From IMG/VR virus record IMGVR_UViG_3300041411_000403, positions 1 through 41,375 of that record: a stretch of 41,375 bases of DNA. One strand, given 5' to 3'. This document shows, in pieces, positions 1 through 41,375 of the stretch. This stretch comes from a virus. The notes under the pieces are model-generated. The model was not told the DNA's origin and made no database searches. It saw nothing but the letters and a program-made list of their open reading frames with translations. Each line of letters opens with the position of its first letter. Positions within the stretch are counted from its first letter, which is position 1. The translations under genes were made by a program, and so were the position numbers.

Positions 1-2652
1 ATGGCCACATACGAAGATACGGGAATTTGGTCGAGGTCCTTGGGCGACGATTCCGATGCGAGGCACGATATTCAGCGTGAGCGTCTACGTACGGCATATC
101 GCGCCTTTTGGACCAATGCGACAGTGCTGTCGCGTGAGATTCAGCGCGACGCCCCGAATTTAACATTACACGATGAGGCCCATTTTGATGCGCTTTGGAG
201 TGCCGCGGATCAGATTGCGGGGCCTGAACTTATGCTCACCCCTCTTGAGGTCTTTGTATTGGGTGGGGCAATTTTACTGCACGACAATGCTAATTCTCTC
301 GCCGCGTTTCCAGGAGGTCTTGAAGCAATCCGCCGCACCCCCGAATGGCAGGATGCGCTTGTTGAATGGGCCGGAAAAAGCAGCAGCGAACCAGACCTTG
401 AAGCTCTTTCACCCGAAGCTTCATCTGCGGTTTTGTTCGAGGTACTTCGCAGTCTTCATGCTGAGCGCGCGCTAACTCTTGCGGGTTTGAGTTTCAAGAA
501 TGGGGAGCGCATCGTCCATTTGATAGAGGATGATCAGCTACGCACCCATCTAGGTGACATCATGGGTTTGGTTGCGGCTAGTCACCACTGGGATGTGGCG
601 TCTCTAGGCATTCGTTTACCTTCTATCCGAGGTGCCTTGGGGGGCATGCCGCAAGCCTGGACTGTGAGGCCGGTACTTCTTGCTTGCCTTCTAAGGTGCG
701 CAGATGCGACCCAACTAGATCAACAGCGTGCGCCCGACTTCCTGTATGCAATGTTGCGTCTGCGCGGGGTATCAGAATCCCACTGGCGCGCTCAGAACAG
801 ACTGGCAACTCCCGTAATTGCACCTGACGACCCGACTGCTCTGATCTTCAGTTCTACAATTCCATTTGGACCAGGCGATTCGGACGCCTGGTGGATTGCT
901 CACGACGCAATTCAGGTAGCGAACCGTGAACTGCAGTCGTCCAATGCACTTCTCCGCGATCAGAGGCTTCCTCACTTTGCCGTCAATCGCGTCGAGGGTG
1001 CGCTATCTCCAATGGCCTTGTCACGTTTTGTGGCGGTCAGCGGGTGGAGACCTGTACAGGCCGAGATAAAAATATCGCAGATCGGCAAGGTCGTGGAAAT
1101 GTTTGGAGGCGAAGAGCTTTATGGTCACGATCCATCGGTAGCCCTGCGCGAGCTCATCCAAAACGCCGCCGACGCAGTTCGTTTTCGACAAGAACTTGAG
1201 CCGCAAGGGTCAGGCTACGAGGGACGGATTACGATTCGACTAAAGGCAGATGAGCAGCAACCAAATACTCATTGGTTAGACGTGGAAGATGATGGTCTCG
1301 GTATGTCCGAAGCCGTCCTCACGGGTCCGCTTATCGACTTCGGATCCAGCTATATGTCCTCGGCGCTCGTTAAGTCCGAGCGACCGGGTCTATTATCGAA
1401 GGGCAAAAAGCGACTTGGCCGTTACGGCATCGGCTTCTTCTCTTGCTTTATGATCGCCGACGAGGTTCTCGTCACCTCACGTCAGTTCGATGACGGGCGA
1501 GATAAACTACGCACGCTTCACTTCCAAGATGGTTTAGGACATCGGCCACTCTTGCTGGACGATCGACCTACAGACTTTGGCAGTGTTTCTTCCACGCGAG
1601 TAAGGCTTCGGTTAACAACTGATAAGCACAAAAAATTGCTTACACTGCAACTTGGCGGATATCAAAACTCACTACCTATCAGCCTCTCCGCATTGGTCGG
1701 AGTACTCTGTCCAATGCTCGATGCAAATGTCTATGTCGAAGAGTTTGGGGAGACGCGTCTAATTCACTCTCGACGTTGGATGGATGAAGATCGTCTGACT
1801 TGGTTGAAGCGAATAACAGCAGCGGATGTGCGCGCAAGTCAGAGTCTTGACGAAAACCTTGCTAGTGCGGCGCCCTTGTTGACATTCGTTGATCCGAATC
1901 AGCCAAATTTAGGCTTGGCCTGTATCACGGGGATGCCATCAGCCGGCGTCGCCACTGTTAGCACCCTCAAGGCAAGCATGGTGTTTGGCTCACCATTCTT
2001 GGACGATTTTGTGGGGGCACTAGATTATGAGTCCGAGGATCCTCGTCGGAGCCGTGGCAAGCCTAAAGCGGGAGACCGTCTCCATTCTTGGGCGAGCGAT
2101 CAAGCAAAACTAAATCTAGAGGCGGGGATAGAAATACCCCGAAAGTTGTACCTCGCAGAGCGCGTGGCCAACTTTGGTGGCGACGCTACCCCAGTTGTAA
2201 TGATGCGCCTTAACCAAGAGTGGGTGGACTTGGATTCTATATTGAAGCATCTCGCGGATGTGGGACCGCTCTATGCACCCGTTACGTACAGTCACTCCGT
2301 AGAAAGGCAAGTCGTAATCACAGTTGTCAGGGAGCGCCACACAGGGCTCCTAGACAATTATCGCCCAGGCGAGCTTGAATTTGTATTACCGACTCTCCAG
2401 TCCGGCTCAAATAATTCTGTCCTCTACGCGGTGCCAACTCCTGATGATCCGGCGGAACTCGGATTTGTGATGTTGCTCAAAAGGTTCGCAGGTCGACATG
2501 GCATGTCAATCCAAACCGATATCATCGAGCGGGTTGAGTTCGCGCGTTATGTGGGGCAAGCATCTCCACGCGATGGTTTGGAGCCTGGCAAGATGATCGG
2601 ATGTGCGGGGCTGAAAATATGGGTTGAACTGAACAACCTCAATCGGCCATAG
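1..2652 (+). CDS. HD domain plus HSP90-like (GHKL) ATPase protein
   Basis: An 883-residue protein beginning at the first base of the window. The N-terminal third has an HD-type helical domain: H57/H61, the pair H94-D95 in LLHDNAN, HH in AASHHWD and a D in LLRCADATQLD. The middle carries the three GHKL ATPase boxes: RELIQNAADAV near residue 383 (N box), VEDDGLGM near 428 (G1) and GRYGIGFFSCF near 475 (G2). This pairing matches the HD-CE/HSP90-like architecture described in bacterial conflict systems. The C-terminal 350 residues are unassigned. It lies outside the prophage, on the left chromosomal flank, and converges on the integrase. The molecular target is unknown. An ATP-dependent sensor or chaperone role in defence is inference. 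Upstream sequence is not available, so a start slightly further upstream cannot be excluded. Confidence 0.8.
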   Translation: MATYEDTGIWSRSLGDDSDARHDIQRERLRTAYRAFWTNATVLSREIQRDAPNLTLHDEAHFDALWSAADQIAGPELMLTPLEVFVLGGAILLHDNANSLAAFPGGLEAIRRTPEWQDALVEWAGKSSSEPDLEALSPEASSAVLFEVLRSLHAERALTLAGLSFKNGERIVHLIEDDQLRTHLGDIMGLVAASHHWDVASLGIRLPSIRGALGGMPQAWTVRPVLLACLLRCADATQLDQQRAPDFLYAMLRLRGVSESHWRAQNRLATPVIAPDDPTALIFSSTIPFGPGDSDAWWIAHDAIQVANRELQSSNALLRDQRLPHFAVNRVEGALSPMALSRFVAVSGWRPVQAEIKISQIGKVVEMFGGEELYGHDPSVALRELIQNAADAVRFRQELEPQGSGYEGRITIRLKADEQQPNTHWLDVEDDGLGMSEAVLTGPLIDFGSSYMSSALVKSERPGLLSKGKKRLGRYGIGFFSCFMIADEVLVTSRQFDDGRDKLRTLHFQDGLGHRPLLLDDRPTDFGSVSSTRVRLRLTTDKHKKLLTLQLGGYQNSLPISLSALVGVLCPMLDANVYVEEFGETRLIHSRRWMDEDRLTWLKRITAADVRASQSLDENLASAAPLLTFVDPNQPNLGLACITGMPSAGVATVSTLKASMVFGSPFLDDFVGALDYESEDPRRSRGKPKAGDRLHSWASDQAKLNLEAGIEIPRKLYLAERVANFGGDATPVVMMRLNQEWVDLDSILKHLADVGPLYAPVTYSHSVERQVVITVVRERHTGLLDNYRPGELEFVLPTLQSGSNNSVLYAVPTPDDPAELGFVMLLKRFAGRHGMSIQTDIIERVEFARYVGQASPRDGLEPGKMIGCAGLKIWVELNNLNRP

Positions 2653-27367: not shown

Positions 27368-29888
27368 CACCATCTCCAACAGCGCAACGCGGATCAATGC
27401 GCTGCAGGTCCAAAGCAGCGCCAGTGGCAAGCCGATCGCGTGGATCGCAGGGCGCAATCGCATCAGCCCCAACCTGATCTACTACACCGATTTTGAATCC
27501 GTCGCCAAAACCAAAAAGACCAAGTCCGGTGGCAAGGGCGGTGGTGGCGCCACACAAAAAGACACCACCTACACCTACTATGCCGCGTTGATCCTGGCCA
27601 TCGGCCGGGGGCGTTTAGGGGCTGTGCACCGGGTCTTCCGGGATAAAGAAGTATTCGCGGAGAAGGTGGTGGAGGGCGTGGTCAAATCCGCGCTGTCGCA
27701 GGTCGGATTCAGTTACAAGCGCGGTACCTCGATTCAGGACGTTTGGGGTTTTCTTGAAACCAAACATCCCGACCAGGCGATCGCTTACTCCGACACTGCC
27801 TACGTGTATGCCCCCCGGTATCGCCTAAATGACAGTGCCGGCGTACAGAATCACACCTTCGAGGTCGACGGGCCTTATCAGGTACCCGGTCTGCCAGATG
27901 CCAACCCCGGAGCGTTCCTGCCCGGCTTGCTCCTGGACCCGTTGGACGGCATCGGCTTCGACCCCAGCTGGATTGCGGATCTGAGCAGTTACCGTGATTA
28001 CTGCCTGGCGGAAAACCTGCTGCTGAGCCCGGTGCTTGATGAGCAGGCGCCCGCCAGCGAAGCGATCGCGCGCTGGCTGCTGCTGACCAACAGCGAGATC
28101 TTCTGGTCGGCTGGGCAGTTGAAGGTGGTTCCTTTTGGCGATCAGGTGGTGACCGGCAACGGTGTCACCTGGTACCCGGACACTACGCCGGTTGCGCATT
28201 TGACCGACGACGACTTTCTCGCCGAAGAGGGCGAGCCTCCCGTACAGCTCAAGATCAAGAGTCAGGCGGACAGCTACAACGAAGTCTCGCTGGAAATCCT
28301 GGATCGAGCGCACGAATACAACACCGATGTGGTGCGTGGTGTGGATCAGGCGGCGATCGAGCAGTTTGGTTCGAGGCCAATGGACACCATGAAGGCGTAT
28401 GAGATCTGTGATGTGGCCATCGGTGCGCACGCGGCGCAGCTGCTGGTGCAGCGCAAACTCTACATCCGCAATGAGTACCAGTTTTCGCTTGGGTGGCAAC
28501 ACGTGCTGCTGGAGCCGATGGATCTGGTGACCGTGACCGAGCCCGGCCTGAAGTTGGAGCGGCGGCTGGTCCGATTGATCTCGGTCGAGGAGGACGATGA
28601 AGGCAAGCTGACGATCACCGCGGAGGATGCCTTACTGGGGGTTGGCAGCGCGCCCAACTATCCCGTGCAAAGCAAAGCCGGCTACCAGGGCAACCAGAAC
28701 GCGGCGCCGGGGCCAGTGCTGCCACCCATCATGTTCAATCCACCTGAAAGCTTGTTGCTGGGCGGTGACAATCAGATCTGGGGCGCCGTCACCGGCGCCG
28801 GTGAGAGTTGGGGAGGTTGCGAACTCTGGATCAGTGCCGATGGCGACAGCTACTGGAAGGCCGAGACCATTTATGGCGGTGCCCGCATGGGAAGGCTTAC
28901 GGCGCCTTTGACTACGGGGAGTGATCCGGACACGGCAAACACCTTATCCGTGTCGTTGTCCGAGCCTGATGAGCTGACCGCGGTCACCACGGCGGAAGCG
29001 GACAGGGGGGCGACGCTCTGTTGGGTCGACGGTGAGCTGATCAGTTATCGGGACGCCACGTTGACCGGCATCGGTGCGTACAACCTGCAGTATCTGCGAC
29101 GCGGCCGGCTCAGTTCGCCGGCGGTCAGCCATCCGGCGGGTGCACCCTTTGTTCGCCTGGATGATGCGGTCTGGAAGTACAGCTACACCCCAGACCAAAT
29201 CGGCAAGACGGTGTGGGTCAAATTTCGCTCGTTCAACGTGTTCGGGCGTGCGCTGGAGGACCTGGCCGATGTGGCGGCCTACAGCGTCCTGCTGTCGCCG
29301 GCGCGGGTCGTGCCCGGTGCCGCGCAGAACCTGCAGTTGGTCGGCGCCTTTGAGGCGCCGTATTTCACCGTCAGTTGGGCGCCCGGGGCTCGGGCTGAAG
29401 AGCATGTGGTGCGGGTTCGAAATGCCAGCAGCAATGCCTTGCTGCGTGAGGTGATAACCACCAGCACGACCTTTACCTATCAACGCGACGATGCCTTGGT
29501 AGACGGCGCCCTGGTGCGCAGTTACCGCGTCGAAGTCGTCGAGCGGAATGCCGCTGGCAGCGCCCCGGTGGCGACGTTGCTGGTCACCAACAGTGCGCCC
29601 CCCGCGGTTGCCGGTACCGCTGCGACGGTCAGCGGTACCACCGCCAATGTCAGCTGCACTGCCAGCATTGCTACCGATGCGGCAGGGTACCTGTACGTGT
29701 ATTCGCTGACCGCGGACTTCGATCCAACTATCACTGGCAGCGTGGGCTACCAGGGCGCCTCGCGTACTGGCCAGATCACAGGCCTGACTACCGGGCAAAC
29801 GTACTTCCTGCGCGCTGCTGCCTATGACACCTGGAGCAGCACCCGCTCCCAGCTCAACTTCGCCCCGGCGATCACCTTCAACACCTGA
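27351..29888 (+). CDS. Tail tip / host specificity protein (gpJ-like)
   Basis: An 845-residue central tail tip protein. The N-terminus (SATRINALQVQSSASGKPIA) and an early Lys-rich loop with GGKGGGGATQKDTTYTYYAA are typical of phage tail-tip (Phage-tail_3/gpJ) proteins. A hub core follows to about residue 430, then an MSF-like beta domain, then two fibronectin-like repeats near 650-840. The very Ser/Thr-rich C-terminus (STTFTYQRDD and later) ends with a strand. It likely determines receptor contact together with the downstream spike. Confidence 0.85.
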   Translation: MGGSSSTISNSATRINALQVQSSASGKPIAWIAGRNRISPNLIYYTDFESVAKTKKTKSGGKGGGGATQKDTTYTYYAALILAIGRGRLGAVHRVFRDKEVFAEKVVEGVVKSALSQVGFSYKRGTSIQDVWGFLETKHPDQAIAYSDTAYVYAPRYRLNDSAGVQNHTFEVDGPYQVPGLPDANPGAFLPGLLLDPLDGIGFDPSWIADLSSYRDYCLAENLLLSPVLDEQAPASEAIARWLLLTNSEIFWSAGQLKVVPFGDQVVTGNGVTWYPDTTPVAHLTDDDFLAEEGEPPVQLKIKSQADSYNEVSLEILDRAHEYNTDVVRGVDQAAIEQFGSRPMDTMKAYEICDVAIGAHAAQLLVQRKLYIRNEYQFSLGWQHVLLEPMDLVTVTEPGLKLERRLVRLISVEEDDEGKLTITAEDALLGVGSAPNYPVQSKAGYQGNQNAAPGPVLPPIMFNPPESLLLGGDNQIWGAVTGAGESWGGCELWISADGDSYWKAETIYGGARMGRLTAPLTTGSDPDTANTLSVSLSEPDELTAVTTAEADRGATLCWVDGELISYRDATLTGIGAYNLQYLRRGRLSSPAVSHPAGAPFVRLDDAVWKYSYTPDQIGKTVWVKFRSFNVFGRALEDLADVAAYSVLLSPARVVPGAAQNLQLVGAFEAPYFTVSWAPGARAEEHVVRVRNASSNALLREVITTSTTFTYQRDDALVDGALVRSYRVEVVERNAAGSAPVATLLVTNSAPPAVAGTAATVSGTTANVSCTASIATDAAGYLYVYSLTADFDPTITGSVGYQGASRTGQITGLTTGQTYFLRAAAYDTWSSTRSQLNFAPAITFNT

Positions 29889-29899
29889 TAGGACTCAAT

Positions 29900-31990
29900 A
29901 TGCAACCCATCCAATTCTTCGCCGCGAGGGCCGAGGACGGCGCTCTGCTGCCCGGTGCCACGGTGGACGTGTTCGTGAGCGGAACCAGCGTGCGCGCCGA
30001 GGTGTTCGCTAAAGCCGATCTGGCCAACACCATTGCCAATCCGCTGACCTCCGACGGCAACGCCCGTGTGTTCTTTTATACGCGTGAGCCTCGCATCGAC
30101 ATCCGCATTCGTCGTGGTGGTTATGTCGCGCCCATGATGGAAGGAATCGTCACCGTTGACCCGCAGGATGCGCTGTTGGCGGCTCAAGCGGCAGTGGTCC
30201 GTGCCGAGATTGCCGCTGACGCCGCGCAGCAGGTCGCGCAGATCAAGCCCGATGTAGCAACCGGCTTGCTCGAAACCGCAGAAGGCAAATATTTCTGTGT
30301 CATCTCGCCGGGTGTTGAAGAGTTTCTGATCCTCTACCGCAAGGTGGCCGGGATCGCGGTAGAGATGAAGCGAACGCCGTCGGCTACTGCCATTACCGCG
30401 GTGCGCGAGATCATTGACACCTACAACGGTGGAGATGGCAGCGTGGCGCTGTCGTTTCTCGATGCAAACCGTTTCACGTTGCTCAAGCTGTTGGTAGATG
30501 GTTCGCTCGATATGATGGGCGCCAAGCTGCGCAGCGCCGGCAATGGCCTGGAGCTTATAGACGCCAACAGTTTCCTGTCGGTCCGCCTGGGCGCCGCTGG
30601 CAGCAATATCAATGGCCTGATAACGCAAACCACAGACGTTCCTGGGGTCGAGTTCATCGATGACCATCGGTTCATTGTGGGCCGGCTGGGCAATGACAGG
30701 GCGTTCTTTGGTCAGCAGGGAGCTCAGGCACCGACGCTGCCGCTGCCGGCCGTCATCCAGTTGAATCAGCAGCAGCGAACCGATATCAAGCAGGTGATCG
30801 AATACGGCCAGTCGCTGAGTCGAGGTGTTCAAGCTTTTCCGGCCATTTCGCTGGCTCAGCCGTATCAGAACATCATGCTGGCCAGTGGCGTTAAGGTCCG
30901 ATCTTTCGAGCCGGCCTATGATGCGTCCGCTTTCGCGCCCCTGGTCGAAATGACTGCCGGTACCGAAGGGGAGACGCCAGTGACCGGGATGTGCAATGGC
31001 GTCACGCGGCGAGCGGTAGAGAATGGCGAAGCTGCAACGAACTGGGTGATGGCGGGTATGGCGCCTGGGCGATCGGGCGCACCGGTGGAGCGCCTGTCAC
31101 CTGCGCCTATGGGAAACGGCGACTATGAGGCGGCTATCAAGTCGATCACTGATTGCAAAAGACTCGCGGACGCTCAGGGCAAATCATATTCGGTTTGGGC
31201 TTATTCCTGGACTCAGGGGGAAAGCAACTATCTGACCGATTTTGAACGGTCGCCTTACCAGTACATGCAGTACCAGCTCGCGCTGTTCGACAAGATGACG
31301 GATGACGTTGTGGCAGTGACCGGGCAGAAGTTCAGGCCGTATCTTTTCTCGTACCAGGTGGGTGCGCACCGCAAGTACGGGCGCGACGCAATGCCCATTG
31401 CGTTGACGCAGTGGCGAGTCAGTCGCGAGAGAGACGATGTAGTGATCGCGGTGCCGGTCTACATGTTTCCAGTGGCGGCCGATAATTTGCACCTGACCAA
31501 TGAAGGGAGTTGGTTGCTGGGCGAATACAAAAGCCGAGCGCTGTACGAAACGATGATCAAGCGTACCGGCAAGTGGCGACCCCTGGAGCCTGTCGCCGTG
31601 GAATGGACGGATTCCTATGTTGACGTTCGTTTCCATGTCCCGCGCGGGGAGCTGGTATTGGACGCAGCGTTGACGGCCCTGACCCGAAACTTCGGGTTCG
31701 ATATTCGAGAGGGCGGTGCGGTGGTCGCGGATCTGATCACCGGCGTTACCGTCCATGCCCCGGACACCGTTCGCATTTCCTTATTGCGTCCTGCAGCAGA
31801 GGATGCCTTGTTGACCTATGCGCGTGGCCGGGTGGGCGATTTCTCGCATTCTGGTCCGGTCACCGGCGCACGGGGCAACTTGCGGGACACGCATGGCCTC
31901 TACGACACAGCTGTTTCTCCGCTGGGCAATACCTTTGCCCTGCATAACCCCTGCGTGATGTTTGAGTACAACCGCAAAACTGGTTTCTAA
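29900..31990 (+). CDS. Tail spike with SGNH/sialate-esterase-like domain
   Basis: A 696-residue protein. The N-terminal 110 residues (MQPIQFFAARAEDGALLPGA onwards, including IDIRIRRGGY) form a virion-attachment domain seen in Pseudomonas prophage spikes. Residues 285-560 have SGNH-hydrolase blocks: S305 in EYGQSLSRG, WTQGESNY near 437-444, and the D-N-L-H pair near 527-530. It probably removes acetyl groups from a surface polysaccharide or sialate-like sugar during adsorption; the substrate is not visible. A beta-rich C-terminus follows. A GGA-type ribosome site precedes ATG 29900. Confidence 0.82.
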   Translation: MQPIQFFAARAEDGALLPGATVDVFVSGTSVRAEVFAKADLANTIANPLTSDGNARVFFYTREPRIDIRIRRGGYVAPMMEGIVTVDPQDALLAAQAAVVRAEIAADAAQQVAQIKPDVATGLLETAEGKYFCVISPGVEEFLILYRKVAGIAVEMKRTPSATAITAVREIIDTYNGGDGSVALSFLDANRFTLLKLLVDGSLDMMGAKLRSAGNGLELIDANSFLSVRLGAAGSNINGLITQTTDVPGVEFIDDHRFIVGRLGNDRAFFGQQGAQAPTLPLPAVIQLNQQQRTDIKQVIEYGQSLSRGVQAFPAISLAQPYQNIMLASGVKVRSFEPAYDASAFAPLVEMTAGTEGETPVTGMCNGVTRRAVENGEAATNWVMAGMAPGRSGAPVERLSPAPMGNGDYEAAIKSITDCKRLADAQGKSYSVWAYSWTQGESNYLTDFERSPYQYMQYQLALFDKMTDDVVAVTGQKFRPYLFSYQVGAHRKYGRDAMPIALTQWRVSRERDDVVIAVPVYMFPVAADNLHLTNEGSWLLGEYKSRALYETMIKRTGKWRPLEPVAVEWTDSYVDVRFHVPRGELVLDAALTALTRNFGFDIREGGAVVADLITGVTVHAPDTVRISLLRPAAEDALLTYARGRVGDFSHSGPVTGARGNLRDTHGLYDTAVSPLGNTFALHNPCVMFEYNRKTGF

Positions 31991-32004
31991 AAGAGGATTT
32001 ATCA

Positions 32005-32745
32005 ATGGGTGTTCAAGTGGTGGCAAAAGGCGTCAACGCCGAGGATTACGCAGTGGAGTACGCGGCGCCTGTTCGTCGGGGTCTTGAGGGGATCTTCTTT
32101 ACCAACACGTCGCTGGAGAAGTGCGCACACAACTACGCGCCGGGTAAGAAAAGCGGTTCGGTTGTTGGCGCACCTTCCGTCAATAGTCAGTACATGTCGG
32201 GACGATCGTCGGTCAACTATGTGCAGACCGATATTGTTGAAACTGAAGAAATGACCTTTTTCATTATCGCCCGTGCTCTCAATCTTCCATCAGGAAACCC
32301 AATTCCCGCCGCAGACCAAGTGATCCTACTGGGTAACTACCTGGCTGGGCCCTGGTCCGGGGTTGTCATGTGGTGCGGTACTTCCACGTCGCTTTCCACT
32401 AATGCGGGATACGGTGTGGATGAGGCCAGCAACGCCAACCTGGGGGCTGGTGTAACACCCAACGACGACACCAAGTGGGGACTGTACTGTGGTCGGGTTA
32501 AGACCAGCGGCCCCGATACCAAAAACTTCACCAACGGTCTCACCTTCGCACGAGTCGCGACGGACCCACGCCGAGTCAGTACCGGTCGCCCGTTGCGCAT
32601 TGGTTCGGGCTATCAGTCGAACCAAACGGGTACCTGGGATATGGCGGCGGCCCTGATCTACAACGTTGCGCTCAATGACGCTGAACGCGATGTGGTAGCC
32701 CAGGACCTGCGCGCCTACGCGGCACGCCGTGGCATTACCGTCTGA
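32005..32745 (+). CDS. Tail-associated lectin-like protein
   Basis: A 246-residue beta-rich protein. The order of strands (TDIVETEEMTFFIIARALNL, WSGVVMWCGTSTSLS, WDMAAALIYNVALNDAERDV) fits a concanavalin-A-like/LamG jelly roll, and the final motif with LNDAER is common at the end of phage LamG-type domains. It follows the spike gene by 14 bases with an AGAGGA ribosome site, so it probably decorates or works with the spike. It could alternatively be exported and act on cell-surface sugars; no signal peptide is visible. Confidence 0.6.
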   Translation: MGVQVVAKGVNAEDYAVEYAAPVRRGLEGIFFTNTSLEKCAHNYAPGKKSGSVVGAPSVNSQYMSGRSSVNYVQTDIVETEEMTFFIIARALNLPSGNPIPAADQVILLGNYLAGPWSGVVMWCGTSTSLSTNAGYGVDEASNANLGAGVTPNDDTKWGLYCGRVKTSGPDTKNFTNGLTFARVATDPRRVSTGRPLRIGSGYQSNQTGTWDMAAALIYNVALNDAERDVVAQDLRAYAARRGITV

Positions 32746-32768
32746 CTCTGTACTTAGTAATGCCCAGG

Positions 32769-32789
32769 CCGCCTCGAGCGGTTTTTTTT
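32769..32789 (+). terminator. Terminator after the tail operon
   Basis: CCGC (32769-32772), 5-base loop, GCGG (32778-32781), then eight Ts. The stem is short but the T-run is strong. Confidence 0.7.
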
Positions 32790-32802
32790 CGCCTGAAATT
32801 TG

Positions 32803-32827
32803 AAGGCCCGCCCAGCGCGGGCCTTTT
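32803..32827 (+). terminator. Second tandem terminator before the endolysin
   Basis: AAGGCCCGC (32803-32811), 5-base loop, GCGGGCC followed by TTTT (32817-32827), giving a nine-pair stem. It ends 14 bases before the endolysin ATG, so transcription of the lysis genes must read through it or begin within the short space left. Confidence 0.75.
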
Positions 32828-32841
32828 GCTTGGAGAGAAGC

Positions 32842-33483
32842 ATGATGCCTCTTACACAGCAGCAGTTGCTGCAGATCCTCCCCAATGCCCGCCCTGTTGC
32901 GGGCATTTTTTTGCCTGCGCTGAACCGAGCCATGGCCCGTTTCAAAATCGACAGCCGGGTACGTCAGGCAGCGTTCCTGGCCCAGGTCGGGCATGAATCG
33001 GGACACCTGCGAAAGCTGGTGGAAAACCTGAACTACAGCGCTGAGGGTTTGGCAGCGACCTGGAAAGATCGGTACCGCGGCGCCGACGGCAAGCCGAACG
33101 CCAAGGCGATCACCCTGGCGAGACGACCAGAAGCGATCGCCAACGATGCGTATGCCGGCCGTAACGGAAACAAGGCGCCCGGGGATGGTTGGTTATACCG
33201 CGGACGAGGATTGCTGCAGATCACCGGTCGCGCGAACTACTGCGCTGCCAGCGCCGGCTTGGGGCTGCCGCTGGAGGATCAGCCGGAGCTGCTCGAGCAA
33301 GCCGAGTACGCCGCCATGTCTGCCGCCTGGTGGTGGTCGCAGCGCAGCCTCAACGATATGGCCGACGCCGGGCGTTTGCAGGACATCGGCAGTGTCATCA
33401 ACACCGGCAAGCCTGGACGGGTGCCACACGGCGCCGCTGAGCGGCTTGCGCTGTACCAGGTCGCGCTGAAAGCGCTGGCCTGA
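32842..33483 (+). CDS. Endolysin, GH19 chitinase-like family
   Basis: A 213-residue muramidase-type endolysin of the GH19 fold: ITDVQAF-like front here as PLTQQQLLQILPNARPVAGI, catalytic Glu52 in VGHESGHL, the family hallmark RGRGLLQITGRANY near 125-140, and AWWWSQRSLNDMADAG. It degrades peptidoglycan at lysis. No signal peptide or SAR segment is seen, so release needs a holin. GGAGAGAAGC precedes ATG 32842; a second ATG follows directly. A terminator-shaped hairpin lies within its first codons. Confidence 0.9.
   Translation: MMPLTQQQLLQILPNARPVAGIFLPALNRAMARFKIDSRVRQAAFLAQVGHESGHLRKLVENLNYSAEGLAATWKDRYRGADGKPNAKAITLARRPEAIANDAYAGRNGNKAPGDGWLYRGRGLLQITGRANYCAASAGLGLPLEDQPELLEQAEYAAMSAAWWWSQRSLNDMADAGRLQDIGSVINTGKPGRVPHGAAERLALYQVALKALA
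32884..32914 (+). terminator. Terminator-shaped hairpin inside the endolysin gene
   Basis: AATGCCCGC (32884-32892), loop cctgtt, GCGGGCATT (32899-32907), followed directly by seven Ts. A nine-pair perfect stem with a U-tract is a textbook intrinsic terminator, but it lies in codons 15-24 of the endolysin. Confidence 0.6.
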
Positions 33484-33540
33484 TTCATACCCTGCGAGCA
33501 ATAGCTCGCGGGGCAATACTTAAAATAGAGCGGGGAAATT

Positions 33541-33735
33541 ATGGAACTCATTGGCAATTGGAAAGAAGCGTTGAAGATGTCCAGCGTTCAGGCAGGCGGT
33601 GCGATTGCAGCACTGGGTATCGCTGAGCAGCTGCTGCCTCAGCTGCAGACGGTATTGCCGCCGGTGGCTTATGGCGTGCTTGGCCTTCTGGTGATGGTGG
33701 CTCGCGTGATTCTGCAGCCAAAGTTGAGTAAGTAA
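33541..33735 (+). CDS. Small holin-like membrane protein
   Basis: A 64-residue protein with two hydrophobic stretches, residues 15-30 (SVQAGGAIAALGIAEQ, weaker) and 38-58 (TVLPPVAYGVLGLLVMVARV), ending in a basic tail. It follows the endolysin by 57 bases with GGGGA upstream. Size, topology and position match small phage holins found with GH19 endolysins in Pseudomonas phages. No spanin pair is recognisable next to it. Confidence 0.75.
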   Translation: MELIGNWKEALKMSSVQAGGAIAALGIAEQLLPQLQTVLPPVAYGVLGLLVMVARVILQPKLSK

Positions 33736-33826
33736 GCATCAAAAAGAGTGGGCGGTGTGAATGCGTCAACATTAAAACCGGCCCCCGTCCCCGCAAATTA
33801 CCCCTGCAGTCCACTCGGCCTCTTCC

Positions 33827-33854
33827 TTGACAAAGATACTTGTCTGGCCATACT
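33827..33854 (+). promoter_or_regulatory. Candidate promoter for the QueC-SpeE-SpeD operon
   Basis: TTGACA (33827-33832), 16-base spacer, CATACT (33849-33854). The -35 is perfect and the -10 matches 4 of 6. It lies 220 bases ahead of the first gene, leaving a long leader containing the hairpin at 33958-33981. Confidence 0.4.
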
Positions 33855-33957
33855 CAAGTGGAACACGTATGGGCATACAAATTTGGTCTCTACTACAGTT
33901 GGGGAGAGTTTATAGACTAAAGTTAATACTCGATACCTCTGGGTTCAGCATGAGAAT

Positions 33958-33981
33958 AACTGAGCGCTTTAGCGCTCAGTT
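33958..33981. repeat. Perfect palindromic hairpin in the leader
   Basis: AACTGAGCGC (33958-33967), loop TTTA, GCGCTCAGTT (33972-33981). With no T-run downstream on the plus strand it may be an operator or RNA processing element rather than a terminator. Confidence 0.65.
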
Positions 33982-34073
33982 CGTAAAAATAAAGTACCTG
34001 ATTCCTAAAGGTGAATCGTCGGCGAATTTGCAAAATTTTATTTCAGGATAATTTGGCAAAGAGGATTTATAGG

Positions 34074-34763
34074 ATGGATTTCAATGCTGACTTTTTTAAG
34101 GCTATTCCTGAGAAAAGTGTAATTATGCTTTCTGGAGGTGTAGATTCGACAGTCTTGGCACATGTAGTTAGGAAAGAGCGTCCCAAACTTCGTGGGGTTT
34201 CGATTAATTATGGCCAAACTAATTTCAAGCGTACAAGAAAAGTAACTAATGTTGTTGGGGTTGATCTTGAAATTCCAATTGAAATTATGGATGTACCAAA
34301 TCTAAGCGCAAGTTTTTCGGGCTTTCTTGAAGAGGAGTACGATGATCACTACGTTATAATGTGTGAGCATGAAGAGCCAATGGGTTCCTTCATATCAGTT
34401 GTCTCATTAGCTGCTTCTTGGGCTGCTGCGATTGGATATGACGCAATATTGGTGGGATACAACAAGGACGATAGGGAAGGTGACTCGGACCGGTACGCTA
34501 ATGCGCCGATTATTTATCAACATGTCGAATCAGCAATTACTGCCTCTATAGGAAGGCCTTTTAAAATCTTGCTCCCATTTTGGGATATATATAAAGGTGA
34601 ACTGATAAAAACTTCCTCAACGCGCGGTATTCCTGTTGATAAGACTTGGAGCTGTTGGCGTGATGGCGTTCAACAATGTGGAGTCTGTCCAGGATGCTTG
34701 GATCGAAAAGATGCCTATAAGAGCTCAGGGATAGCTGATGTGACAGCCTACATTACCCCGTAA
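34074..34763 (+). CDS. QueC-like PP-loop ATPase, diverged substrate side
   Basis: A 229-residue member of the QueC (7-cyano-7-deazaguanine synthase) superfamily. The ATP pyrophosphatase loop SGGVDST lies at 20-26, and the zinc site uses C194, C202, C205 and C208 (CWRDGVQQCGVCPGCLDRK), as in QueC. QueC adenylates a deazaguanine carboxylate and amidates it. Two family hallmarks are changed: the usual VP-x-RN segment reads EPMGSF (101-106), and SGYPDCR reads DDREGDSDR (132-140). ATP use is therefore expected, but the substrate is probably different. It opens a three-gene operon with aminopropyl-transfer genes. QueC-like proteins are known in Qat and type IV CBASS defence. ATG 34074 has AGAGGA upstream. 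AT-rich, unlike the phage core. Confidence 0.85.
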   Translation: MDFNADFFKAIPEKSVIMLSGGVDSTVLAHVVRKERPKLRGVSINYGQTNFKRTRKVTNVVGVDLEIPIEIMDVPNLSASFSGFLEEEYDDHYVIMCEHEEPMGSFISVVSLAASWAAAIGYDAILVGYNKDDREGDSDRYANAPIIYQHVESAITASIGRPFKILLPFWDIYKGELIKTSSTRGIPVDKTWSCWRDGVQQCGVCPGCLDRKDAYKSSGIADVTAYITP

Positions 34764-34778
34764 CAAAGGCGTATGTTA

Positions 34779-35618
34779 ATGGCAAATCTATGTATGGAAG
34801 TAGCACCATCAGTCTCCTTGGTTTTTCAAAACGTCAGAGAAATTGAACGGCTAAATTCATTGTATCAAGATATTGCAGTACTTGATCATAGTTACTTTGG
34901 TCGCATCCTTGTTATTGATGGGGTTATTCAGCTCACATTCAAAGATGAACATATTTATCACGAGTCACTCGTGCATCCCACGGCATGCTGCTTGAAGAAT
35001 TTGTCGAATGCGCTAGTCATCGGGGGTGGAGATGGTGGGATTGCGAGAGAGCTGCTCAAATATCCCGATTGCGAAATTACCGTTGTGGATCTTGATCCTG
35101 TGGTAACTCAGATCGTGGATAAATATATCCCCACTGTAGCAAATGGAGCCTTCGCATCGCCTAGAGTTAATTTGATAAATGCAAACGCTATAGATTATCT
35201 AGCTAATTGTGATACCAAGTTCGACCTGATCATTGCAGATCTAACTGATCCGCGGCCTGGAACATCCAAACTCTTGTACGAATATGCATTTTTCCTACAA
35301 CTTAGCACGTTTCTAAATCATAGCGGTGCATTCGTGACACACCTCAGCTTGCCGGATGTTGGGATGGCTCGCTTTCGAAGAACTATCAAAGATCTTAAGA
35401 TGGTATTTTCAGAGTTGGGCTGTTTTTCAGTATCCATGCCGTCGTTTGGAATAACCCCCATGGCAATTGCAGTGGCATCGCAACAGCCTCTGCAATCAGA
35501 CAATATAACTGCTCAGAGAATTTCAAATGATACAAAGTTTTTCTCTCCGGATCAGAAGCCTCCATTTGTATTCCCTAGGCACTGGTATGACTTTCTTGTT
35601 CGTCGCCCCCGTTTTTAA
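34779..35618 (+). CDS. Aminopropyltransferase, spermidine-synthase (SpeE) family
   Basis: A 279-residue spermidine-synthase-fold enzyme. Residues from ATG 34779: LYQDI at 28-32, FGRILVIDGVIQ at 40-51, DEHIYHE at 56-62, the nucleotide loop GGGDGG at 82-87, VVDLDP at 102-107 and the catalytic ADLTDP at 153-158. All elements needed to bind decarboxylated S-adenosylmethionine and an amine acceptor appear intact, so it should be active. The acceptor (putrescine or another amine) cannot be read from sequence. It starts 15 bases after the QueC-like stop, and the second ATG has better spacing to AAAGG than the one at 34773. The next gene makes its co-substrate. Confidence 0.88.
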   Translation: MANLCMEVAPSVSLVFQNVREIERLNSLYQDIAVLDHSYFGRILVIDGVIQLTFKDEHIYHESLVHPTACCLKNLSNALVIGGGDGGIARELLKYPDCEITVVDLDPVVTQIVDKYIPTVANGAFASPRVNLINANAIDYLANCDTKFDLIIADLTDPRPGTSKLLYEYAFFLQLSTFLNHSGAFVTHLSLPDVGMARFRRTIKDLKMVFSELGCFSVSMPSFGITPMAIAVASQQPLQSDNITAQRISNDTKFFSPDQKPPFVFPRHWYDFLVRRPRF

Positions 35619-35627
35619 ATTTCAAAA

Positions 35628-36023
35628 ATGATCGGGTCTCACATTGTTGTCGATTGCTCGGGGTGCCTGTGCTCTATCGATTTTCTGGTCGATCACGCTG
35701 TTTTTTCGAATCAAGCCAGGGACATAATTGTTTTGACAGGATTTCAAGTAGTTACTGAGTGCTGGCATTCTTTTTCTAAAAGCGTTGACGATCAATATGG
35801 GTATAGTGGGGTTTTCTTGCTGGCCGAATCTCATGTGTCAATACATACTTGGCCTGAGATTAATTCATGCGCAATGGATATTTACGTCTGTAACTACTCA
35901 AAAGATAATGCCTCCGCAGCGGATAAACTATCGGAAATGCTCTGCAAGATCTTTTCGCCAAAAAATATAGACAAAAAAATCATAACACGAGGGCTATCGT
36001 TAGGTACTTCGTTGCTCGACTGA
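35628..36023 (+). CDS. Pyruvoyl S-adenosylmethionine decarboxylase-like protein (SpeD family)
   Basis: A 131-residue bacterial AdoMetDC-type proenzyme. It contains LLAESHVSIHTWPE, where chain cleavage before S68 would create the pyruvoyl group, with H73 and C88 (DIYVC) at the spacing of the short Thermotoga-type enzyme (63/68/83). It would make decarboxylated AdoMet for the adjacent aminopropyltransferase. SpeD relatives can instead be ornithine or arginine decarboxylases, which cannot be excluded. The ATG is 9 bases after the previous stop with only a weak ribosome site, suggesting coupled translation. It is the last gene of the operon. Confidence 0.88.
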   Translation: MIGSHIVVDCSGCLCSIDFLVDHAVFSNQARDIIVLTGFQVVTECWHSFSKSVDDQYGYSGVFLLAESHVSIHTWPEINSCAMDIYVCNYSKDNASAADKLSEMLCKIFSPKNIDKKIITRGLSLGTSLLD

Positions 36024-36056
36024 ACGGGGTGGAGTGTGTCCATAGATAACTTATGC

Positions 36057-36088
36057 GACATACCGTATGTCAATCATTACCCGTAATG
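36057..36088. promoter_or_regulatory. Two adjacent operator-like dyads
   Basis: GACATAC-C-GTATGTC (36057-36071) and CATTAC-CC-GTAATG (36075-36088) are perfect dyads three bases apart. They lie between convergent genes, where no promoter is expected, so their role is unclear. Confidence 0.5.
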
Positions 36089-36112
36089 CCAAATGAACAA
36101 TAACCTCGATAT

Positions 36113-36165
36113 GTCCAAAAGCCCTACAGTTACTTATTTACAAGGCTGTAGGGGTCGTTTTGGAC
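36113..36165 (+). terminator. Long interrupted inverted repeat, candidate terminator
   Basis: GTCCAAAA (36113-36120) pairs with TTTTGGAC (36158-36165), and CCCTACAG (36122-36129) pairs with CTGTAGGG (36146-36153), with a small asymmetric bulge between the arms. A T-rich run follows on the plus strand. It would end the SpeD operon before the convergent SIR2 gene. An alternative is a mobile-element end or recombination site. Confidence 0.6.
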
Positions 36166-36169
36166 TTTA

Positions 36170-38914
36170 TTATTTTTTAAGTCGTTTGAATGCGTTTTTC
36201 ATAGAGTCACTAAGTTGAGTGACCTGTTCAACAACTCCCTCGAATTCTTTTATCTTTGAAGCGTCTATTGCAGATAATTGATCTTTTAAGACTTGAAAGT
36301 TGCTTGAGGTGCTACCTTTATTAATGTGCTCATTCACTTTTTCTTGAAGTGCAGCCAGGGTGAATTCAAGGTCTTCTTGTTCAAGTATTCCAAAGCTGTC
36401 TAAGTTTAAAGCAAAAATAATTGAAGATTCGTTCAGGCCTACTTCTTTAGCTTGTGTGAAAGTGGTTTTCAAAAGTTCCGTAGTCTGAGCCTTTAAGTCG
36501 CCGGTGGCCAGGGAGTGGATTGCAAAGATGAATCGAGATATGGCTCTTAATCGATCGTCTAAGTCCATTAGTGAAACGTTTAGGATAAATTTGCTGATCT
36601 CTTTATTATCTTTAAAAAGATCCACCTCAGCTTCGTGGTTGTCCTTAATTAAATATAAAAGACTTGAGAATAGGGTGCCTCGTTCTTGGATTGGTAGGTA
36701 TGAGTTTGAGTTGATTTTTTGCATTTGCTTATCGAGTAGCATCGTCAAGTCACTAACCGAAAATGTATTGCCATATCGATTGAATTGCAAAACTAAAAAT
36801 CTATTGATTGTTTCGGACAGAATTGCCCATCGGTTCGTATCTACAGCGGAGACTAAGTGATTAATGATAGCAGTACTTACAGATTCTTCATGCTTTGCAT
36901 AAGATAAAACAGTTAATGCATTGGACCATACGTCGGAAGCATGATCGTATGTGTTCTCCTTATTAGAGGAAGATATCTCAGCAAGACAGTTTTCAAGGAT
37001 CTTGAATGCATAGTCAAATGTTTCTCTTGAGATTTCTATTGATTCGTCTTCTTGCAAGTTCTCTGAAAGAAAGTTCGTGAGGTTTTTTGTCTTGAATGAA
37101 CTTACTGCAAGATAAAAAGTGGTTTCATCAATAGTTGTTTTGCTGTCTAAGCACATTCTTTTAACAATCGACTCAAAAGCAATTCTTGCTATGTCTTTGT
37201 AGTCTGAAGAGTATATTACCGAAATTTTATTCTTTATTACGAATAAGATTATGGCATGAGCCTGGTTGTACATTGATGCAAGTTTATTACTGAAGGCCAT
37301 TCCCCCTTTGTTAATGATCTTTATTTCATCATCTATTTCACGGCTAAGATTAGAGATATGTTTCAGTCTTTCGAGTAAAAAAGAATTACTGGCGTCTAAA
37401 CCTTGAAATAAAGGTTTCTGTCTGCTCGTAATGCTTTTTGGAAATTTGTCGATCATTTCTGCGATGTTATCATTTCTTGATAACTGTTCCTGCATCGAGA
37501 TCTCGACGAAATCTTGGTGAGGATCCCATGGGATTTCGCCAAAGCATAATTGTTTTTTGTTGAAAGACGATACTAGTGATTTAATAAAATTAGATTTCAA
37601 AAAGTATCGATTAGCAACATGCATGAAGGAATCTCGTGCAATTGCAAGTTCTTTAAGGTAGTAGTTGTCGTACGCAAATTGGAAACTGTCCTCTAGATTG
37701 TTGCTGAGATTGATGCTGGCGGAGGAGCTTCGCGACTTTATAAAGTTGAAATCGAAGGTTGTGTATTCATCCGGAATTTTAAACTTCGAAGGATTTTTAA
37801 TTCTGTAGAAGGATTTTACCGAGGTGGTTAGTTGAAATTCTAAAATTGGTATGTGTGAGAGTAGTTTAACTAAACTGGCTCTTATTTTTCTATAATGAGC
37901 TCTGGTGTATTTTTTTTCTTCAGCACTCAAGTTATACGCTATGATGTTGCGATCGGGGCTGTAGTAGATTTTATTTATTTCTGTTGCGTTTAGTCGGTCT
38001 TTAATTAATTGAACAAAGGTACTTGGATAAACAATGTTCCAGTTAGCGACGTCAGACAATATTTCAAATAATATATCAGATATTTCAATGTCTTCCGGGT
38101 GGGTGATTTTTTTTATTGTCTTGGCGACTCCAATGCTTTTAGGTGAAAGCCCCGTGTAATTTATATGTGAGTCATTATCATCCTCCCGCAAAAGCGGATA
38201 TACTCCTTTTTCCCTAAGATAGTTACATTCGGATAGGGTGATTCTACTTTCTGTTAGAATTGTAAATGAAGGAGGGGCGTCCTGGGTTCTGTTTCTGATC
38301 CAGCTAAGTATCTGATTTAGGTTGTAATCACTGATGCTGTACCCAATAAATAGCACGACATGGGTTGAGAATAAGCTTTTAATGAAGTTCTCGATTAGAG
38401 GGAACTTATCGGTGTATGCGAGGTAGTCAGATTCTTTGAATATTATGTTTCTATGAGATAGATCGCCATGCATTTTTACTAATAATTGTGAGCTTGGAGA
38501 AGATGCAAGTTCATGGTCTGAAGCAACCTTGAAATATAGTTCTCCGTGGTTTTCTATTGCCTTTTCAAGTAGATTGTCCCAATTTGTCGTGACTATGTGC
38601 TGAGGTTTTAGCTGTAGGATTAGTTCGTGCAGGAGGTTTGGATGACTCCCTGAAGGGAAAAATTCATTTATCTTACTGTAGTACGTATTTCTCCCGTACT
38701 GTAGATAAAAGTGCTCGGCTATTTTCAAGTAGTCGTCGGTTCTTGGGTTTTCCAAAGCGTTTTTCATTAGACTGATTAAATCTCCCCATGAGGGAAGCTT
38801 TGAGTCATATGAAACCGCGGAACCAACAAAAATCGCGAGTTTGTTATTTTCGATGGCCTTTCGTAATGTACGAAAATGTTCTTTATTTATTACTTCCATT
38901 AATAGATTTTCCAT
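36170..38914 (-). CDS. SIR2-domain NADase-like defence protein (DSR-like)
   Basis: A 914-residue protein. Residues 25-200 are a SIR2 (SIR2_2-like) domain: AIFVGSAVSYDSKLPSW at 27-43, IVTTNWDNLLE at 107-117 with catalytic N111, VKMHGDL with H149, and VVLFIGYSISDYN at 186-198. The remaining 700 residues are helical and without a recognised domain, as in DSR1/DSR2 proteins that sense phage proteins and then deplete NAD+. The typical FxGAG is FVGSA here. It is convergent with the enzyme operon and strongly AT-rich with rare-codon character, so probably acquired. The start could be ATG 38914 or 38899; neither has a strong ribosome site. Confidence 0.85.
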   Translation of the reverse strand: MENLLMEVINKEHFRTLRKAIENNKLAIFVGSAVSYDSKLPSWGDLISLMKNALENPRTDDYLKIAEHFYLQYGRNTYYSKINEFFPSGSHPNLLHELILQLKPQHIVTTNWDNLLEKAIENHGELYFKVASDHELASSPSSQLLVKMHGDLSHRNIIFKESDYLAYTDKFPLIENFIKSLFSTHVVLFIGYSISDYNLNQILSWIRNRTQDAPPSFTILTESRITLSECNYLREKGVYPLLREDDNDSHINYTGLSPKSIGVAKTIKKITHPEDIEISDILFEILSDVANWNIVYPSTFVQLIKDRLNATEINKIYYSPDRNIIAYNLSAEEKKYTRAHYRKIRASLVKLLSHIPILEFQLTTSVKSFYRIKNPSKFKIPDEYTTFDFNFIKSRSSSASINLSNNLEDSFQFAYDNYYLKELAIARDSFMHVANRYFLKSNFIKSLVSSFNKKQLCFGEIPWDPHQDFVEISMQEQLSRNDNIAEMIDKFPKSITSRQKPLFQGLDASNSFLLERLKHISNLSREIDDEIKIINKGGMAFSNKLASMYNQAHAIILFVIKNKISVIYSSDYKDIARIAFESIVKRMCLDSKTTIDETTFYLAVSSFKTKNLTNFLSENLQEDESIEISRETFDYAFKILENCLAEISSSNKENTYDHASDVWSNALTVLSYAKHEESVSTAIINHLVSAVDTNRWAILSETINRFLVLQFNRYGNTFSVSDLTMLLDKQMQKINSNSYLPIQERGTLFSSLLYLIKDNHEAEVDLFKDNKEISKFILNVSLMDLDDRLRAISRFIFAIHSLATGDLKAQTTELLKTTFTQAKEVGLNESSIIFALNLDSFGILEQEDLEFTLAALQEKVNEHINKGSTSSNFQVLKDQLSAIDASKIKEFEGVVEQVTQLSDSMKNAFKRLKK

Positions 38915-41165: not shown

Positions 41166-41375
41166 TCATTCTGGCGTCATCAGCACGGCGAGCGTCAGCT
41201 TGATGAACTCTTCGTTTTTATCAATGGTGTCCAAGGCGCCGCGGACATTCTCGGCTACGTCAGCTGCACCGCGCTGCTCGACCCAATTCGATAGCTCCAT
41301 GATGGCGGCTTCCAGGGCGAGCTGGTTCTCGTTGATTTTATATAGAAGGGAAGGGAGCAGGTCTGAATTTGGCAT
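41166..41375 (-). CDS. Small protein gene, integration target
   Basis: A 69-residue helical acidic protein (SLLYKINENQLALEAAIMEL then RGAADVAENVRGALDTI), beginning with an ATG at the window edge. Its last codons lie in the attR repeat. The final 11 residues are probably phage-supplied, while the original end is at 2783-2827. The function is unknown. The near-synonymous replacement keeps the protein almost unchanged (K/M, M/L and P/S substitutions), so integration need not inactivate it. Anything upstream of the ATG is outside the window. Confidence 0.6.
   Translation of the reverse strand: MPNSDLLPSLLYKINENQLALEAAIMELSNWVEQRGAADVAENVRGALDTIDKNEEFIKLTLAVLMTPE
41199..41210. other. attR core (candidate)
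   Basis: An identical 12-base copy of the attL core, located in codons near the end of the 41166-41375 gene. The surrounding 45 bases align with 2783-2827 at 37 positions. Confidence 0.65.

Follow-up and report, generated by a model that had tools for sequence, protein, structure and literature searches.

Genes and features at the locus

The window, the whole 41,375-nucleotide stretch of DNA analysed here (IMG/VR record IMGVR_UViG_3300041411_000403), comes from a temperate phage, and its earlier designation as a prophage is supported by genes for an integrase, an excisionase, a CI-like repressor, a terminase and a portal protein, alongside which there are a primase-helicase and tail fibre genes. 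A short capsid match had raised a Mu-like phage as a candidate, which was dropped on account of the integrase, excisionase and repressor and of a terminase and portal of the lambda/HK97 type. Pseudomonas phage KT1 carries DNA related to the window, and Pseudomonas prophages have endolysin and right-end genes related to those found here; a search for att repeats returned a match of 12 bp at most. To the left of the integrase, positions 1-2652 (+ strand) encode an 883-residue protein with HD-CE and HSP90-like ATPase domains. Proteins with an HD-CE domain have been linked to conflict systems.

The subject of this study is a trio of genes that, as the preliminary description had it, follows the lysis genes of the phage (an endolysin-like gene at 32800-33483 and a DUF7940 gene at 33541-33735). 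The gene order runs from the lysis genes through the trio to a convergent SIR2 gene, small ORFs and a phage gene at the right end, with the following features:

33958..33981, + strand: stable hairpin upstream of the trio (10-bp stem; -16.4 kcal/mol, z -4.7)
34074..34763, + strand: QueC-like PP-loop ATPase, 229 aa, non-canonical (Pfam PF06508, E=6e-28)
34773..35618, + strand: SpeE-like aminopropyltransferase, 281 aa, start possibly at 34779 (Pfam PF01564, E=1e-35)
35628..36023, + strand: SpeD-like class 1b AdoMet decarboxylase, 131 aa (Pfam PF02675, E=7e-23)
36113..36165, both strands: stable hairpin between the trio and the SIR2 gene (-23.7 and -22.3 kcal/mol, z -4.7 and -5.7)
36170..38914, - strand: SIR2-domain protein, 914 aa (Pfam SIR2_2, 9e-27; PADLOC ThsA, 1.7e-30)
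41166-41375: phage gene at the right end, family phrog_12397, beyond the cargo

The three ORFs are intact, adjacent and co-directional, and the family assignments made from the letters alone are borne out by the Pfam matches. The spacing, given earlier as 15 and 9 bases, holds for the 9 bases before the SpeD-like gene; the gap before the SpeE-like gene is also 9, not 15, when its start is placed at 34773. A gap of 15 corresponds to a start at the next ATG, 34779, which is better spaced from an upstream AAAGG. All three proteins fall below their NCBIfam equivalog cut-offs (73.8 versus 150.3 bits for the QueC-like protein with TIGR00364, 208.5 versus 260 for the SpeE-like protein with PRK00811, and 73.1 versus 75.65 for the SpeD-like protein with TIGR03330), so that they are members of their families, none of them of the textbook kind.

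The DNA is AT-rich, as first noticed, with 42.0% GC in the cassette that contains the trio versus 60.7% for positions 9000-33735, and the GC3 of the trio is 0.34-0.44 versus 0.76 in the terminase gene. The trio consists of foreign genes inside a temperate phage of about 61% GC.

The hairpin at 33958..33981 is possibly the terminator of the late operon, and the one at 36113..36165 is probably a two-sided terminator separating the trio from the SIR2 gene that converges on it. A consensus scan for promoters and terminators found sites no more often than in shuffled DNA, and there was no match in Rfam.

The QueC-like protein

Residues were assessed in an audit that set each protein of the trio against 85-94 homologues and considered the positions that at least 85% of these conserve. 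The QueC-like protein keeps the SGGxDS PP-loop (S20-S25) and the zinc cysteines C194, C202, C205 and C208, together with K174, TWSC, Y46 and Y141. It lacks the canonical QueC motifs VPxRN (the RN) and YPDC (the P, D and C) as well as the H and E of YxQxHxxE, and the tyrosine of the zinc region is replaced by W195. In Escherichia coli QueC, VPxRN, YPDC and the zinc-region Tyr are essential for preQ0 synthesis (PMC13329287). In both Cap9 and QueC, a Tyr stacks on the deazaguanine and an Asp reads its Watson-Crick edge (PMC13279940); the stacking Tyr is kept in the window protein, and an Asn is aligned with the Asp. QatC has other replacements at the CDG-recognition positions and may bind a different substrate (PMC13279940). 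The simplest reading of these residues is that the QueC-like protein would use ATP to activate an acyl group as QueC does, with a substrate that is not CDG.

Its AlphaFold2 model (pLDDT 87.6) retrieves QueC (2pg3 and 3bl5) and then Cap9 (9nto) in Foldseek, with E about 1e-9, and its best sequence match in the PDB is Cap9, at 42.5 bits. Judged by its sequence, the protein is neither a canonical QueC nor Cap9 nor QatC. The eighth, Cap9-like row of alignment A1 was left out, together with the counts containing it. The nearest relatives, at about 31% identity, are three nearly identical proteins encoded on two Bacillus prophages and a plasmid (L014, L015 and L002, described below), which likewise lack the RN and PDC motifs; their grouping with the window protein is tentative given the long branches in the tree. 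Canonical QueC-level matches are present in the Pseudomonas hosts searched, and a housekeeping top-up by the phage gene is therefore not needed.

The SpeE-like and SpeD-like proteins

The SpeE-like protein keeps the ADLTDP motif noted at the outset (residues 155-160), with the catalytic aspartates D156 and D159, as well as the dcAdoMet loop GGGDGG and DExxYHE. Other conserved positions have changed: N138-A139 stands in place of the adenine-side DG, D106 in place of E (E106D), and the amine-side Y, Y and H have become F225, F257 and Q261 (Y225F, Y257F and H261Q). From spermidine synthase structures, we take the DG to lie on the adenine side, the E to bind the ribose and the Y/Y/H set to lie on the amine side. 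Foldseek matches the AlphaFold2 model to Pyrobaculum SpeE (7xih, E=1e-25). In the tree, the protein sits beside beta- and gammaproteobacterial SpeE proteins, mostly encoded adjoining a class 1b SpeD, on a branch of 3.29 versus a median of 0.15. The SpeE-like and QueC-like proteins both occupy very long branches, and their changes could be fast drift.

The SpeD-like protein keeps 15 of 15 strongly conserved residues, including the processing Ser, the catalytic His and Cys (S68, H73 and C88, numbered as first described) and P76, the proline of HTWPE. A conserved proline distinguishes true AdoMet decarboxylases from arginine decarboxylases (PMC10407285), and we read this diagnostic residue as the HTWPE proline. 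The best match is a protein of Undibacterium (100 bits), of the same lineage as for the SpeE-like protein. Both proteins point to one beta/gammaproteobacterial speD-speE lineage and so arrived as a functional pair. With the catalytic residues kept throughout, all three enzymes of the trio look catalytically competent, as had been proposed.

Exchange of the cassette with a Dam methyltransferase

A scan with the SIR2 protein yielded two IMG/VR contigs, L316 and L317, whose SIR2 proteins are 85% identical to that of the window. L316 matches the window in blastn with 94.4% DNA identity over 28840-33813, covering tail and lysis genes, and the match resumes at 36171, continues through the SIR2 gene (82% DNA identity) and appears again at the right-end gene. 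The segment in between defines the borders of the cassette:

33814..36170, no strand: whole exchangeable cassette, about 2.4 kb, with no counterpart in L316 (blastn)

Exactly in the slot of the trio, both contigs carry a gene for a 267-aa D12-class (Dam-type) adenine methyltransferase. The same Dam gene also stands after the lysis genes in the Pseudomonas prophage L308 (94% identity). Since the trio and Dam alternate between lysis and SIR2 genes that are shared, the trio is a discrete drop-in cassette, and the proposal that it is cargo is borne out by the methyltransferase that two close relatives have there instead. The exchange may have run in either direction, with the trio replacing the DNA methyltransferase or being replaced by it.

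The SIR2 gene was considered as a part of the system and rejected, as these close phages retain it without the trio; the SIR2 protein thus needs no trio, and its gene is probably separate defence cargo outside the cassette. The protein resembles ThsA at its N-terminus, and its long C-terminal region matches no family. The alternative that the cargo lies in host DNA beyond the phage was likewise rejected, with the phrog_12397 gene lying further right and the same frame present in L316.

Further cargo is found nearby in related prophages, namely SRAP, an Mrr-type nuclease and a DUF2971/PDC-S31 protein. The phrog_12397 gene occurs twice in each relative (489-695 and 2111-2317 in L316; 1385-1591 and 4298-4504 in L317) with cargo between the copies, and this duplication may help cargo exchange.

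Search for a second trio

The preliminary description had called for a search for co-occurrence of the three families. This check was run with limited sensitivity, and no second trio turned up in IMG/VR loci, phages, plasmids, E. coli or sampled Pseudomonadota. Among 80 viral QueC, 15 viral SpeE and 80 viral SpeD loci, no other locus combines QueC with SpeE or SpeD, and none of at least 80 SpeE loci from genomes, among the matches listed, has a QueC partner. The genomes were drawn as four samples, three of them around a Pseudomonas genome (399 genomes at the level of its genus, 369 of its class and 398 of its phylum) and one around an Undibacterium genome (399 at the level of its order). Together these comprise about 1,560 Pseudomonadota genomes, some of which are in more than one sample, and across them QueC matches reach about 75 bits or 31% identity at most.

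In the phage and plasmid collections, no trio is found among the best matches listed; plasmids of Phaeobacter, Comamonas, Xenorhabdus and Klebsiella have SpeD and SpeE matches with no QueC neighbour. At the DNA level, searches in phages, plasmids and E. coli gave no match. Scans with single proteins over viral and genome contigs returned no relatives and were replaced by alignment-based scans. As the collections were scanned with short back-translated patterns and the genomes are samples, the failure of the trio to recur is to be read as rarity, not absence. With no second trio found, the functional link between the three genes rests on one locus. The earlier interpretation is upheld as to discrete cargo, competent-looking enzymes and an undescribed gene set. 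It is not upheld as to recurrence, the lack of which it had itself named as refuting, and its suggested products (a modified nucleotide, toxin-like compound or defence tag) found no support. The changed pockets of the SpeE-like protein, the altered CDG-recognition motifs of the QueC-like protein and the methyltransferase in the slot of close relatives are additions to it.

Relation to known systems

Cap9 of type IV CBASS (PMC11996544, PMC13279940) resembles the QueC-like protein in its small QueC fold, PP-loop and zinc cysteines, but it keeps the RN and YxD/YxDC motifs that the window protein lacks. Searches of Pfam, PADLOC and PHROGs found no CD-NTase, Cap10 or other CBASS gene among the ORFs of the cargo region, and in contrast to Cap9 the protein is paired with SpeE and SpeD. 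QatC of qatABCD is also a QueC-family protein with replaced CDG-recognition residues on a defence-related element; at 229 aa, however, the window protein is half the length of QatC (about 400 aa), scores 27 bits against a cut-off of 280 for NCBIfam QatC, and has no QatA, QatB or QatD neighbours.

The closest relatives of the QueC-like protein belong to gene pairs on mobile elements of Bacillus, two prophages and a B. glycinifermentans plasmid, in which a non-canonical QueC-like gene is followed by one for a HinT-like HIT protein:

L014, 6004-7450: QueC-like gene, then HinT-like HIT gene
L015, 5980-7401: QueC-like gene, then HinT-like HIT gene
L002, 6004-7436: QueC-like gene, then HinT-like HIT gene

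These pairs share with the window a mobile setting and the missing RN and PDC motifs, and differ in having a HIT partner instead of SpeE and SpeD; no description of them was found as far as the literature was searched. We read the two prophages of this set, from their neighbouring genes, as SPbeta-like. The HIT protein also matches PADLOC ThsC, and the pair is possibly another undescribed QueC-family module.

For the other two proteins, the pairing of SpeE with SpeD and the DLTDP motif are shared with the thermospermine/spermidine synthase and class 1b SpeD of the Pseudomonas aeruginosa PA4774 type (PMC11107197) and of Undibacterium and relatives (L201, L203 and L254), among which the nearest lineage of both proteins lies. 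Against these pairs, the window shows reversed gene order, a very long branch, changed pockets and a QueC-like partner.

Virus-encoded polyamine pathways (PMC9992855; marine contigs L096-L107) are similar in that speD and speE are carried by phages, in the marine contigs beside 7-deazaguanine genes. They differ in a complete-looking spermidine route with QueD and QueE and no QueC-like ligase, in other viruses and in another order. The IMG/VR contigs L096-L107 and L111-L115 (for example L105, 2776-7410) encode QueD (PTPS), a QueE-like protein (called by eye, with only a weak match to a 4Fe-4S domain), SpeD, another SpeD-like protein, SpeE and a 216-aa unknown protein; this conserved 7-deazaguanine/polyamine order is hosted by large, cyanophage-like viruses. 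A separate cluster on the Xenorhabdus plasmid pXT141 (L006, 5788-11090) comprises genes for a SpeD-like protein, a radical-SAM protein annotated HutW, an unknown protein and ornithine decarboxylase, and is a possible polyamine-derived metabolite cluster.

Proposed pathway and alternatives

The best reading, to which we give somewhat less than an even chance, is that the trio forms a biosynthetic cassette of three enzymes, complete in itself and borne by the phage as exchangeable cargo, that would make an aminopropyl-bearing amide conjugate. SpeD would decarboxylate AdoMet to dcAdoMet, and the SpeE-like enzyme would move the aminopropyl group of dcAdoMet onto an amine, probably not plain putrescine. 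The QueC-like enzyme would then adenylate a carboxylate with ATP and form an amide with an amine, either the aminopropylated one or ammonia; a precedent is Cap9, which takes a protein N-terminus where QueC takes ammonia. This conjugate would derive from host metabolites.

The genes are intact, the folds recognisable, the catalytic residues conserved and the substrate residues changed, and the cassette is exchanged as a unit; from these observations we infer the activities, the order of steps, the acceptor, the product and the role of the trio. In favour of the pathway are a tight, co-directional trio with exact borders, kept catalytic residues, altered substrate-side residues, the shared lineage of SpeE and SpeD, and the canonical QueC-level matches in Pseudomonas hosts. 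Against it are the single locus, the long branches and a promoter scan at chance level. The interchange with Dam and the SIR2 neighbour suggest a role in phage-host or phage-phage conflict, which would follow from position only. A bolder proposal, and a doubtful one, is that a QueC-family ligase freed from 7-carboxy-7-deazaguanine joins a carboxylated metabolite, nucleobase or protein to the aminopropyl chain supplied by SpeD and SpeE, giving an undescribed product for phage conflict that is interchangeable with DNA methylation.

Ordinary polyamine synthesis would also be consistent with a supply of dcAdoMet together with host polyamines; SpeD and SpeE would then provide spermidine or a related polyamine for phage replication and translation, and the QueC-like protein would top up 7-deazaguanine or queuosine or be an unrelated passenger. 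Working polyamine enzymes are known from viruses, and there are Pseudomonas phages that depend on host spermidine (PMC9992855); the marine contigs have queD, queE, speD, another speD-like gene and speE in series, and SpeD looks fully functional from its residues. This auxiliary metabolism is nonetheless rather unlikely: SpeE has lost conserved amine- and adenine-pocket residues, QueC has lost those essential for preQ0 synthesis in E. coli, and both score below their equivalog cut-offs. Cargo assembled by chance or in decay, its three metabolic genes unrelated and with no joint product, would agree with the lack of recurrence and the very long branches, but this reading is less probable still in view of the intact ORFs, their tight spacing and shared GC, the catalytic residues kept in all three and the common origin of SpeE and SpeD.

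The positional exchange with Dam, exact in L316 and L317 and echoed by the post-lysis Dam of L308, could instead mean that the trio does the job of the replaced enzyme, as a nucleic-acid modification or anti-restriction cassette that places an aminopropyl or amide group on DNA or RNA bases. QueC-family enzymes do participate in deazaguanine modification of phage DNA; the cassette, however, lacks a transglycosylase, a DNA-binding domain and a base-carboxylating enzyme, the guanine-reading Asp of QueC and Cap9 is Asn here, and unrelated genes are often exchanged in cargo slots, which makes base modification distinctly unlikely. Phage T3 AdoMet lyase exemplifies a role in consuming AdoMet. SpeD and SpeE might similarly use up host AdoMet, impairing methylation-dependent restriction or host functions with QueC as an accessory, and SpeD is intact in a slot that elsewhere holds an AdoMet-using DNA methyltransferase; such drainage is very unlikely, as a lyase or hydrolase would be enough and both the QueC-like gene and the kept catalytic residues of SpeE would go unexplained. 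That the trio makes a signal for the adjoining SIR2 effector, in the way that ThsA of Thoeris is served by TIR proteins, is hardly credible: the SIR2 N-terminus is ThsA-like and the genes adjoin, but the 85% identical SIR2 genes of L316 and L317 stand beside Dam without the trio, and the trio and the SIR2 gene converge on a two-sided hairpin.

Implications for the QueC family

The enzyme families are known, and the repurposing of the QueC family on mobile elements is already a known theme; the combination of the trio with a double remodelling, of the SpeE-like and the QueC-like protein, is unrecorded. No paper describing the set was found in the literature searched, in agreement with the initial statement that no named system has it, and the main text of the 2026 survey of the QueC family makes no mention of a polyamine-linked cluster. 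A joint product of the trio, if shown, would make the system categorically new, and the proposed pathway predicts a methionine-derived C3 aminopropyl product. Protein modification by QueC-family enzymes has recently been shown or proposed in CBASS and Qat and, if the proposed pathway is true, this theme would extend to polyamine chemistry, with a dcAdoMet and aminopropyl supply of its own.
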